Assembly (NCBI GenBank): GCA_902614395.1
Contig: CACMKW010000005.1
Location: 34,949 to 98,948, forward strand
Reading direction: 5' to 3'
Length of the DNA: 64,000 nt
Source of the DNA: an uncultured Alphaproteobacteria bacterium
GTDB taxonomy: Bacteria > Pseudomonadota > Alphaproteobacteria > HIMB59 > GCA-002718135
Part shown: positions 40,268-44,517 of the stretch, piece after piece
Numbering within the stretch: the stretch's first letter is position 1
Layout: each line of letters opens with the position of its first letter
The notes under the pieces: generated by a model
The model's database searches: none
The model's input: the letters and a program-made list of their open reading frames with translations, nothing else
Told to the model about the DNA's origin: nothing
Translations under genes and position numbers: made by a program

Positions 40268-40975
40268 ATGAAAGTTGATAAAGACCAAATATCCGCATGG
40301 GGTGTTCATGCCTTCACTGGATCTGGAGCTATACTTGGATTTCTTGCCTTGATATCAATTTTAAATAATGATCAAGTAGGTAGTTTTTTATGGCTTGGTA
40401 TGGCCTTACTAGTGGATGGAGTTGATGGAACATTAGCCAGGAAGGTAGGTGTTGAGGAAAAAGCGCCAAATCTAGATGGAATTATTTTAGATTCCATTAT
40501 TGATTATCTAAATTACGTTATTAATCCAGCTTTAATGATTTACTGGTTTCAGATGGTGCCATCTGGTTTTGAAATGATTTTGCCTGCTCTAATATTTGGA
40601 GTTTCTTTGTACACTTTTATAAACGTTAATATGAAAACAGATGATTATTATTTTCAAGGTTTTCCTGCAGTCTGGAATGTTGTAGTTTTATATTTCTTTA
40701 TATTAAATACAAATGAATGGATAAATCTAGTTGTGATAATAATTTTATTAGTACTAACATTTGTTCCATGGAAGTTTGTTCATCCATTAAGAGTAAAATC
40801 ATTTAGAAATTTGACAATTTTTTTTACTGTTGTTTGGGCAGCAACAACATTACGATTAGTAACAAAATCAGAAATAAACTTAATTATAAATGATACAATT
40901 GTTCTTCTAATATGGTTAATTTGTACGGGTTACTTTATTTATATTTGTTTTCTTAGATCAATTAAAGACTACTAA
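40268..40975 (+). CDS. pcs: phosphatidylcholine synthase
   Basis: AWGVHAFTGSGAILGFLALISI, LVDGVDGTLARKVGVEEKAPNLDGIILDSIIDYLNYVINPALMI (CDP-alcohol phosphatidyltransferase motif). Confidence 0.92.
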   Translation: MKVDKDQISAWGVHAFTGSGAILGFLALISILNNDQVGSFLWLGMALLVDGVDGTLARKVGVEEKAPNLDGIILDSIIDYLNYVINPALMIYWFQMVPSGFEMILPALIFGVSLYTFINVNMKTDDYYFQGFPAVWNVVVLYFFILNTNEWINLVVIIILLVLTFVPWKFVHPLRVKSFRNLTIFFTVVWAATTLRLVTKSEINLIINDTIVLLIWLICTGYFIYICFLRSIKDY

Positions 40976-40997
40976 AAGCGTAAGAAATTCAATATTA

Positions 40998-41022
40998 TTT
41001 TGCATATGCAAAAAATGCATAT
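40998..41022. promoter_or_regulatory. palindrome TTTTGCATATGCAAAA followed by a second TGCATAT
   Basis: 16-bp perfect palindrome (40998-41013); TGCATAT at 41001-41007 and 41016-41022, upstream of the riboswitch-like leader. Confidence 0.35.
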
Positions 41023-41077
41023 CAAATAAGTATGAAATTCATTTTTAAAAATAAATAAATTTTATTATTAAAATTTC

Positions 41078-41132
41078 ATCGTTCATTTTGAATAATTCAA
41101 AACGGAAGTAAACGAAAGTTGAAGGAACGCAT
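41078..41132 (+). ncRNA. glutamine riboswitch aptamer-like element, copy 1 (glnA type)
   Basis: ATCGTTCA-TTTTGAA-TAA-TTCAAAA-CGGAAGTA-AAC-GAAA-GTT-GAAGGAACGC; P1 CGTTC/GAACG, P2 TTTTGAA/TTCAAAA, P3 AAC/GTT; core GGAAGUA and GAAGGAACG. Confidence 0.82.
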
Positions 41133-41144
41133 GCAAGTTATTAA

Positions 41145-41197
41145 ATCGTTCAATCTGTATTAACAGATCGGAAGTAGGCTAATGCTGAAGGAACGCG
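41145..41197 (+). ncRNA. glutamine riboswitch aptamer-like element, copy 2 (glnA type)
   Basis: ATCGTTCA-ATCTGT-ATTA-ACAGAT-CGGAAGTA-GGC-TAAT-GCT-GAAGGAACGC; same core as copy 1, with P2 and P3 changed compensatorily. Confidence 0.85.
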
Positions 41198-41262
41198 GAT
41201 CTTATTATTAATTTCCATAGCTAAGCATGAATTATAACGGATAAGAAAGGTTTGTTATAACT

Positions 41263-41325
41263 ATGTTTAAAAAGTTAGATAATAAAAAGATACTCTTTTC
41301 AAATCTCAAGAGGCTTACTCCTTGA
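41263..41325 (+). CDS. 20-codon leader ORF (MFKKLDNKKILFSNLKRLTP)
   Basis: Preceded by AAGAAAGG; stop TGA (41323-41325) overlaps ATG (41325-41327) of the ATP-grasp gene. Confidence 0.5.
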   Translation: MFKKLDNKKILFSNLKRLTP

Positions 41326-42731
41326 TGTTTAATGAAATGTATCAATCTGAGTCAGTTATAAGAAATCATTATAACAATATTAATGATTGGTTAGATCAAA
41401 TGACCTCAAAAGTTATTCTTGAAAAGAATGCTGAAGCTGAAACTCATTTTAGAAATATTGGAATTACATTTTCTACAAATAACGAAACTGCAAGAGAAAG
41501 AATTATTCCGTTTGATTTAATTCCAAGGATATTTACCTATACTGAATGGTTAAGATTAGAAAGAGGAGTAATCCAAAGAGCTAAAGCACTTAATGCATTT
41601 CTTGCTGATATTTATAATCAAGGTGAAATAATAAAAGCTAATATAATTCCTAAAGAAATTATTTACAAAAAAAAATCTTTTGAACCTTCAATGTTTGGTT
41701 TTTCCCCTCCTAGAGATATCTATAGTCCTATAATTGGTATTGATTTAGTAAGAACAGGTCCCAATGATTATTTTGTTTTAGAAGATAATTGTCGAACACC
41801 AAGTGGTGTTTCTTACATGCTAGAAAATAGAGAAATAATGATGCGAATGTTTCCTGATTTATTTCATAACAACAGAGTAACACCAATAGATGACTACCCA
41901 ACAAGACTTTTGCAAACCTTGATGAGTTTAGCTCCTATAAAATGTGAAAATCCAGAACCAGTATGTGTGTTACTTACACCTGGTCCTTTAAATAGCGCTT
42001 ATTACGAACATAGTTTTTTATCAGATCAAATGGGTATTGAAATGGTTGAATCAACAGATTTATTTGTTGAAGGAAAATATCTTTATATGAAAACAGTTGA
42101 TGGTCCAAAAAGAGTAGATGTAGTGTATAGAAGAATAGATGATGATTTTTTAGATCCTCTCTGTTTTAATCCTCAATCTGTAATTGGTATTCCAGGAATT
42201 ATGGATGTTTATAGAACAGGTGGTGTCAATATCTGTTCAGCTCCTGGAGCAGGCATAGCTGATGACAAAGCAATTTATATTTATGTACCTGAGATGATCA
42301 AATTTTATTTAGGCGAACAACCAATCTTAGATAATGTTGAAACATGGAATTGCGAAAAGGAACAAGAATTAAAATATGTTTTAGATAATATAAATGAACT
42401 TGTCGTAAAAGAGGTTGATGGATCTGGAGGTTATGGGATGTTAATAGGTCCAAAATCTTCTAAATCCTCTATAGATGAATTTAAAACAAAACTCTCAACA
42501 AATCCAAAAGGATATATAGCTCAACCTCTACTTGATCTTTCATTTTCACCAACACTAATCAAAAATCAAGTTGAGGGAAGAAGGGTAGATTTACGTCCAT
42601 TTTGTTTAATTGGAGAGCAGGCTCAATTAAGTTCTGGTGGTTTAACTAGAGTTGCAATGAATGAAGGTTCGTTTGTTGTAAATTCTAGCCAAGGAGGCGG
42701 TGTGAAAGACACATGGGTTTTAGCTGAATGA
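41325..42731 (+). CDS. circularly permuted ATP-grasp protein (DUF404/DUF407 type)
   Basis: FGFSPPRDIYSPIIGIDLVRTGPNDYFVLEDNCRTPSGVSYMLENR, VYRRIDDDFLDPLCF, VVKEVDGSGGYGMLIGP; ATG 41325 preferred over TTG 41322. Confidence 0.95.
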   Translation: MFNEMYQSESVIRNHYNNINDWLDQMTSKVILEKNAEAETHFRNIGITFSTNNETARERIIPFDLIPRIFTYTEWLRLERGVIQRAKALNAFLADIYNQGEIIKANIIPKEIIYKKKSFEPSMFGFSPPRDIYSPIIGIDLVRTGPNDYFVLEDNCRTPSGVSYMLENREIMMRMFPDLFHNNRVTPIDDYPTRLLQTLMSLAPIKCENPEPVCVLLTPGPLNSAYYEHSFLSDQMGIEMVESTDLFVEGKYLYMKTVDGPKRVDVVYRRIDDDFLDPLCFNPQSVIGIPGIMDVYRTGGVNICSAPGAGIADDKAIYIYVPEMIKFYLGEQPILDNVETWNCEKEQELKYVLDNINELVVKEVDGSGGYGMLIGPKSSKSSIDEFKTKLSTNPKGYIAQPLLDLSFSPTLIKNQVEGRRVDLRPFCLIGEQAQLSSGGLTRVAMNEGSFVVNSSQGGGVKDTWVLAE

Positions 42732-42740
42732 GGAATAAAA

Positions 42741-43676
42741 ATGTTAAGTAGAACTGCTGAATATCTATATTGGATCAGTCGTTATATGGAAAGAGCTGAA
42801 ACTACAGCCAGGCTTTTGGATGTTGGTTATAGAATGTCTCTTTTTCCAAATCCAAGTGGTTATAATAATGAATGGGAATCAGTTTTATCTGCTGCTGGAG
42901 CAATAGAGGGATATAAAAATAAATATGATACAATTGAACAGAAAAATGTGGAAGATTATTTATTTTTTGATGAAAGTAATCCTTCATCTGTTTACAATTG
43001 TATTCTTAATGCACGAAATAACGCATTAGTAGTTAGAACTTCCTTTACCCCGGAGTCTTGGTTAGCAATTAATAAAACTTATCAAGAGATACTAAATTTA
43101 AAAGAAAAAAAATTTACAAAATCTGATTTACCTGATCTTACTGAGTGGACAATAGAACAAGTAAACTTATTTAGAGGATCATTAAGTTCTTTGCTTAGAA
43201 ATGATGGTTATAATTTTCTTTTTCTTGGTTTATTTATTGAGAGGGCTGATAATTCTGCCAGATTATTAGATGTAAAGTATTTTGTTTTATTACCTAAGCC
43301 TCAATATGTAGGTGGTAATATCGATAATATGCAATGGAGTATATTGCTTCGCTCTTTATCTTCTTTTAGAGCTTTTAGATGGGCATACGATGGTAATATT
43401 ACCGCAACTAAAATTGCAGACTTTTTAGTTTTAAATAATAATTGCCCTAGATCTTTAAGTTTTTGTATTCAGAATATTGTTAAACATTTAACTAACCTAA
43501 CATGCAGTCCAGAAAAAGTTGGAAGAATTTATAATAATTTAAAAGATCTAAATACTAAAATTCAGGAAGAAAAAATAGAAACTATTGTTGAATATGGACT
43601 TCATCAATTTGTAACACAATTTATTAGAAAAATATCTAGTGTTGATAACGAAATACATAAGGAGTTTTTTAATTAA
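42741..43676 (+). CDS. alpha-E domain-containing protein (DUF403)
   Basis: MLSRTAEYLYWISRYMERAETTARLLDV, FLFLGLFIERADNSARLLDVKYF. Confidence 0.96.
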   Translation: MLSRTAEYLYWISRYMERAETTARLLDVGYRMSLFPNPSGYNNEWESVLSAAGAIEGYKNKYDTIEQKNVEDYLFFDESNPSSVYNCILNARNNALVVRTSFTPESWLAINKTYQEILNLKEKKFTKSDLPDLTEWTIEQVNLFRGSLSSLLRNDGYNFLFLGLFIERADNSARLLDVKYFVLLPKPQYVGGNIDNMQWSILLRSLSSFRAFRWAYDGNITATKIADFLVLNNNCPRSLSFCIQNIVKHLTNLTCSPEKVGRIYNNLKDLNTKIQEEKIETIVEYGLHQFVTQFIRKISSVDNEIHKEFFN

Positions 43677-43677
43677 T

Positions 43678-44517
43678 ATGGAACTAATCATTGAACACAC
43701 AACTAAGTATGAATATAAAAATCCTGTTGCAGGATTAATTCAAACTACAAAATTATATCCTTCAGAATATAACGGTCTTAAAATTTTAGAATGGAATGTC
43801 CATAACGACTCAGCCAAAAAATCAAAAATTTATCAAGATGGTATGGCTAATAATATTCAAAGTTTTACAAACACAAACAAGGTTAAAAAAATACAATTTA
43901 CCGTTCTTGGAAAAGTTGAGACATTTGATACAAAAGGAATTTACCAGAGTGCTTCTGATAAAATAGATCCATTGGTTTACTTAAGAGAATCAAACTTAAC
44001 AAAAGCAAATACTGATATAAAAAATTTAGCAATTGAAGCTAAAAATGGTTTTAATGAAAATGAAAATTTAGAAACATCTCATAATCTTATGAATTTAGTA
44101 GCTGAAAAAATTGAATACAAGCCATTAACCACAAATAATCAAACAACAGCAATTGAAGCATTTAAACAGAAAAAAGGAGTCTGCCAGGACCAAGCGCATA
44201 TTATGATCGCTGCCGCAAAAACATTAGGAATTCCAGCCAGATATGTAAATGGTTATATGCACAATAATTCCCATTCTTCAGAATTTCAATCTACACATGC
44301 TTGGGCTGAATTTTATATAAATGATTTAGGTTGGGTAGGATTTGATCCAACAAATAAATGCAGTCCTGATGAAAGATATGTACGTGTTTCATGTGGGCTT
44401 GATGCTAGTTACGCATCACCTATTAAAGGTGTTTTTTATGGTAATATCAGTAATGATGCTGTTATAGAAAACTTAGATATTCATGTACAAACATTAGAAA
44501 ATAATTCTCAACAATAA
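43678..44517 (+). CDS. transglutaminase family protein
   Basis: MELIIEHTTKYEYKNPVAGLIQTTKLYP, KKGVCQDQAHIMIAAAKTLGIPARYVNGYM, THAWAEFYINDLGWVGFDPTN; listed ORF starts 43639, ATG 43678 preferred. Confidence 0.95.
   Translation: MELIIEHTTKYEYKNPVAGLIQTTKLYPSEYNGLKILEWNVHNDSAKKSKIYQDGMANNIQSFTNTNKVKKIQFTVLGKVETFDTKGIYQSASDKIDPLVYLRESNLTKANTDIKNLAIEAKNGFNENENLETSHNLMNLVAEKIEYKPLTTNNQTTAIEAFKQKKGVCQDQAHIMIAAAKTLGIPARYVNGYMHNNSHSSEFQSTHAWAEFYINDLGWVGFDPTNKCSPDERYVRVSCGLDASYASPIKGVFYGNISNDAVIENLDIHVQTLENNSQQ

Follow-up and report, generated by a model that had tools for sequence, protein, structure and literature searches.

A tandem glutamine riboswitch with a conserved composite architecture and a probable shared expression platform upstream of an ATP-grasp/Alpha-E/transglutaminase operon in uncultured Alphaproteobacteria

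What is controlled by two glutamine-type aptamers that lie side by side, and do the two act through one expression platform or through two? This question is raised by a locus in the window, that is, the whole stretch of 64,000 nucleotides of marine alphaproteobacterial DNA analyzed here. The aptamer doublet is flanked on its 5′ side by a CDP-alcohol phosphatidyltransferase gene, which ends at position 40975, and on its 3′ side by an operon encoding ATP-grasp, Alpha-E and transglutaminase-like proteins.

Identity of the tandem aptamers

The original prediction, made from the sequence alone, described two adjacent RNA elements of the glnA glutamine class whose hairpins differ while base pairing is kept; it supposed that the host is an alphaproteobacterium and that the tandem would give a steeper or dual response. 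A cmscan search of the whole window with Rfam release 15 returned exactly two riboswitch matches, both to RF01739 (glutamine-I):

41078–41133, + strand: glutamine riboswitch aptamer 1 (RF01739, 66.0 bits, E value 2e-12; P2/P3 covariation)
41145–41199, + strand: glutamine riboswitch aptamer 2 (RF01739, 62.4 bits, E value 2e-11; covariation)

The gathering cut-off of this family is 35 bits. Both aptamers span model positions 1–53 of 53 and contain no non-standard pairs. Besides these matches, cmscan of the window found only a tRNA; the Downstream-peptide model (RF01704), which had been named together with glnA for the Rfam check, has no match in the window at its gathering threshold. P1 is formed by 41080–41084 with 41125–41129 in aptamer 1, where the equivalent of C60 is 41130, and by 41147–41151 with 41191–41195 in aptamer 2. 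The hairpin arms quoted in the prediction are all present: P2 is TTTTGAA/TTCAAAA in one aptamer and ATCTGT/ACAGAT in the other, and P3 is AAC/GTT and GGC/GCT, the latter with one G-U pair.

In an alignment of 64 matches from related genomes, the RF01739 structure is paired in 97.2% of cells, compared with only 27–39% in a control in which the partners were slid by 1–3 columns. Changes on both sides of a pair are found for all P2 and P3 pairs of aptamer 1 and for most of those of aptamer 2. Neither P1 nor the core varies in either aptamer. The argument from internal covariation thus holds on independent data, and the two elements are real and not a product of chance. The cores CGGAAGTA and GAAGGAACG are also invariant across the leaders of relatives. 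Ligand-bound glutamine aptamers have a linchpin pair between G23 and C60, which directly follows P1 on its 3′ side (PMC11477058); the residues of this pair, represented by CGGAAGTA and the C after P1, are present in both copies. It is virtually certain, judging from sequence, that the tandem consists of glutamine riboswitch aptamers, and glutamine binding itself is predicted. The proposed alphaproteobacterial host agrees with the closest relatives, all of which are Alphaproteobacteria/Pelagibacteraceae single-cell genomes. The tandem habit of glnA aptamers, named in the prediction, is on record as well: a 2010 study drew attention to tandem glnA RNAs (PMC2864571), and 157 doublets and 4 triplets were counted in 2022 and treated as pseudo-cooperative systems (PMC9481103). 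The regulated operon, the leader ORF and the helix described below were absent from the prediction.

The operon and its leader ORF

Downstream of the doublet, the following features were recognized:

41232–41260, + strand: hairpin TTATAAC/GTTATAA with the Shine-Dalgarno sequence GAAAGG (41245–41250) in its loop, read directly
41263–41325, + strand: leader ORF of 20 codons, MFKKLDNKKILFSNLKRLTP, with frame and stop/start adjacency kept in relatives
41325–42731, + strand: circularly permuted ATP-grasp gene (Pfam PF14403, PF04174; ATG backed by relatives)
42741–43676, + strand: Alpha-E (formerly DUF403) gene (Pfam PF04168, 1.6e-86)
43678–44517, + strand: transglutaminase-like gene (Pfam PF01841, PF08379; start taken from relatives, the longest ORF beginning at 43639)

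The arms of the Shine-Dalgarno hairpin change jointly in relatives, to TAACAG/CTGTTA or AACAAA/TTTGTT. The only good Shine-Dalgarno sequence belongs to the leader ORF, the stop codon of which overlaps the ATG of the ATP-grasp gene (TGATG). This ORF and its adjacency to the ATP-grasp start persist in relatives while the peptide drifts. A functional leader peptide was considered and rejected, as the substitutions in the ORF (14 synonymous and 43 non-synonymous states, out of 32 and 139 possible) do not point clearly to purifying selection. The ORF is consequently treated as a coupler, and translational coupling to the ATP-grasp gene is the simplest reading of the arrangement. Transcription termination was also considered and rejected, since the region 40900–41400 contains no terminator-like site.

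The ATP-grasp, Alpha-E and transglutaminase domains have been described as a peptide synthesis or modification system, and were found to co-vary with domains of urea metabolism in marine metagenomes (PMC3597751), which fits a role of the operon under nitrogen scarcity.

A composite element built around a proposed helix, P0

The two aptamers are part of a larger composite, in which an aptamer, a near-invariant linker of 16–19 nt, a second aptamer and a near-invariant downstream block follow one another. In the window, the two additional parts are:

41130–41146, + strand: conserved linker CATGCAAGTTATTAAAT, 5′ strand of helix P0 (41130–41134, 41136–41141), near-invariant in glnA, amtB and ATP-grasp leaders
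41211–41230, + strand: conserved block ATTTCCATAGCTAAGCATGA, 3′ strand of P0 and candidate anti-start element, conserved in tandem leaders

The consensus across leaders is C(A/G)TGCAA(A)AGTTAT..AAAT for the linker and UUUC(C)AUA(A/G)CUA(R)GCAUGA for the block. Both are nearly constant even though the loci control different genes and the remaining sequence differs. All full-length tandem leaders examined in f1, the family of the window's lineage, contain the block, which is not recognizable after single aptamers. Linker and block are complementary, CAUGC to GCAUG and AGUUAU to AUA(A/G)CU, and give an 11-bp helix, P0, which encloses aptamer 2. In the window, ATAGCT (41217–41222) pairs with 41136–41141 and GCATG (41225–41229) with 41130–41134.

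In each full leader, the energy of the P0 duplex lies between −10 and −12 kcal/mol, a value reached by 0.1–0.8% of shuffled linkers (p 0.001–0.008). The divergent linkers AGUUUG and AGUUAG keep the pairing in another register. Covariation of P0 was not obtained across the 64 matches, in which the helix hardly varies; being too conserved to show covariation, P0 rests on conservation and complementarity. Fourteen alignment rows appear unpaired in inner P0; they come from glnA leaders, where an additional A puts the alignment out of register, and do pair when examined individually. The composite with P0 is likely to be a conserved functional element.

Distribution and a probable nitrogen regulon

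Of 163 genomes of the order, 108 contain a match to a covariance model of the composite (R1); they are spread over six genera and all belong to family f1; among the same genomes, no match is found in the sister family f2, which has the ATP-grasp gene (~49% identity) but no RF01739 match. A strict tandem pattern, run over 399 genomes of the phylum, matched only in the window's own genome. In that genome, a further doublet separates glnB from glnA, and other members of the genus carry as many as four, located at glnA, two ammonium transporters and the ATP-grasp operon. Pfam assignments place glnA and ammonium transporters behind the same element in the window's genome or in relatives. When loci were fetched with the ATP-grasp protein, the doublet was found upstream of the gene in all 47 clade relatives with a complete leader; the fetched loci from Pelagibacteraceae (~75% identity) and Rhodobacteraceae carry no aptamer there. 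The reuse of the composite before glnA and amtB ties the ATP-grasp operon to nitrogen supply.

Some loci show other arrangements. In L115, L116, L132 and L133, two consecutive ammonium transporter genes each have their own doublet, about 2 kb apart. A different f1 ammonium transporter (L117, L122, L124, L289, L292, L302, L305) follows a single aptamer without P0, and in some of these leaders a pairing may form between AGTT, 3′ of C60, and AACT, upstream of the Shine-Dalgarno sequence. Four riboswitch-free Pelagibacteraceae leaders (L085, L087, L094, L099) contain the near-palindrome TGTCAATTTGGCA within ~60 nt upstream of the ATP-grasp start, in three of the four inside a leader ORF with a strong Shine-Dalgarno sequence. 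This is perhaps a protein-binding site in place of a riboswitch.

A second alphaproteobacterial family, f10, has the same operon behind a different leader. In each of four genomes, one glutamine aptamer was detected, single and located before the ATP-grasp gene (loci L136–L139 and L273–L275), the product of which is 60% identical to that of the window. Alpha-E and transglutaminase genes follow in all three genomes for which the downstream region was fetched, with Pfam assignments made on one. When P1 is forced in the folding, CUCUUUC after the aptamer pairs with the Shine-Dalgarno sequence GAAAGAG, so that modelling suggests an OFF design. The link between glutamine and this operon appears to matter, because two families place the operon under glutamine by different leaders.

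A proposed glutamine-OFF switch

The block is complementary to start regions as well as to the linker. In most glnA leaders, its UUUCAU could pair with AUGAAA at the start; in amtB leaders, UUUCCAU could pair with AUGGAG(G), and in most ATP-grasp leaders, CCAUAG could pair at the leader ORF with CUAUGG. In the glnA leader L280, from another genus, AUGAAA is missing and the Shine-Dalgarno sequence is AUGGAGG; its block is of the UUUCCAU type, as in amtB leaders, which is what co-variation of block and target would predict. In the window, the candidate anti-start pairing joins CATAG (41216–41220) to CTATG (41261–41265) and has lost one pair (ATGTTT in place of ATGGTT); pairing is weak in one ATP-grasp subclade, the L008 group (−3.8 kcal/mol). 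In modelled folding with aptamer 2 held, freeing the block lowers the accessibility of the start region in 50 of 66 leaders. Unconstrained folding does not cleanly separate the two states.

We infer, for the window, glutamine binding, a shared platform, an OFF sign and the following order of events. At low glutamine, the linker would pair with the block, keeping the block off the start region, and the leader ORF and the coupled ATP-grasp gene would be translated. At high glutamine, aptamer 1 would capture C60 for pairing with G23; as this C60 is also the first base of P0, binding should cost P0 its terminal pair. Aptamer 2 would tighten on the opposite side of the same linker, and P0 would weaken. 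The freed block could then pair with the start codon or the Shine-Dalgarno sequence and lower translation. Translational repression by glutamine is proposed because pairing of the block with these sites is in competition with P0, and a dual-aptamer arrangement because there is neither a terminator nor space for a platform between the aptamers. Placed before glnA, amtB and the operon, the module would define a glutamine-repressed regulon for nitrogen acquisition.

The sign of the switch has to be weighed against tandem glutamine aptamers in viral contigs. These are frequent in IMG/VR (at least 120 stretches), and their linkers are 6–11 nt in 77 of 78 cases. A helix runs from C60 directly onto the Shine-Dalgarno sequence in 52 of 53 distinct leaders, versus ~6% expected for random tetramers. 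From sequence, the viral design looks like an ON switch, without P0. Many viral tandems (L149–L228) precede ORFs of ~46–67 codons, for example MTKYQ..., with the Shine-Dalgarno hairpin starting at C60. In one contig of the viral collection, L202, the two aptamers are separated by a linker of 25 nt and followed by an ORF resembling glutamine synthetase (MNTFEYIWLDGYQPEPMMRSKVKATEDDTPPDWSFDGSST); this contig is possibly cellular DNA.

The viral design is one reason to consider that the same shared platform works with the opposite sign: bound aptamer 2 might just as well stabilize P0, freeing the start region and activating translation. Since P0 encloses aptamer 2, it would also gain from compaction of that aptamer. 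We regard this as less likely: glnA and ammonium transporters would then be induced by glutamine, against their role, and C60 of aptamer 1, as the first base of P0, cannot join both pairings. Independent action of two pseudo-cooperative riboswitches with separate expression platforms would follow the classification of tandem glutamine riboswitches in PMC9481103, but the linker (17 nt in the window) has no Shine-Dalgarno sequence, start codon or terminator and is given over to pairing with the block, and viral tandems manage with still shorter linkers, which makes separate platforms distinctly improbable. A single aptamer evidently suffices in f10 and at the third amt gene of the genus, and so one copy might control alone, the other being a redundant duplicate and P0 a passive spacer helix. 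This reading is at least as hard to accept, as the cores of both aptamers stay invariant and their helices covary throughout six genera, and the linker and block rank with the best-conserved segments.

One expression platform therefore probably serves both aptamers, as far as the leader sequences indicate, and we favor, with some reserve, the glutamine-OFF sign for the translational switch. For the whole combination of aptamers, P0 composite, shared platform and OFF sign, the chances appear about even. More tentatively, the element may be a true dual-aptamer switch in which one P0 is eroded from both ends, giving a steep OFF response in a reused module that places the operon in nitrogen-limitation physiology.

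Relation to known systems and significance

The glutamine riboswitch class and its tandem habit are already known. The window copies have the complete RF01739 consensus, far above the cut-off, with nitrogen genes downstream as in that family, but the window's lineage adds the linker and block that form P0 and, by prediction, control of the operon. Published tandem glutamine riboswitches likewise place two consecutive aptamers before a single transcription unit; they are described as pseudo-cooperative, with separate platforms (PMC9481103), whereas one shared platform is the simpler reading here. In sequence anatomy, the probable arrangement resembles that of the tandem glycine riboswitch, with two homologous aptamers, a short linker and one platform (per PMC9481103), which differs in ligand and fold. 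The Downstream-peptide motif (glutamine-II) also places a glutamine sensor before a short ORF, but its model does not match in the window, where the ORF seems to be a translational coupler with an unconserved peptide. Marine phage glutamine riboswitches (Melnitz, Mosig; PMC9004378) and those of viral contigs share glutamine-I type aptamers, in tandem in the contigs, but have short linkers, no P0 and a hairpin straight from C60 onto the Shine-Dalgarno sequence. In the literature searched, no paper links a glutamine riboswitch with transglutaminase or with the ATP-grasp/Alpha-E/transglutaminase operon. Two features thus appear to be new: the composite found throughout the lineage, with its probable shared platform, and the glutamine control of this operon.

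If the proposed switch is correct, glutamine would be added to the small set of ligands for which dual aptamers serve a single platform. The sign of control would then differ from the one inferred for viral tandems, although both use this aptamer and its C60 contact. In addition, the riboswitch offers a physiological handle on the widespread and uncharacterized ATP-grasp/Alpha-E/transglutaminase operon.
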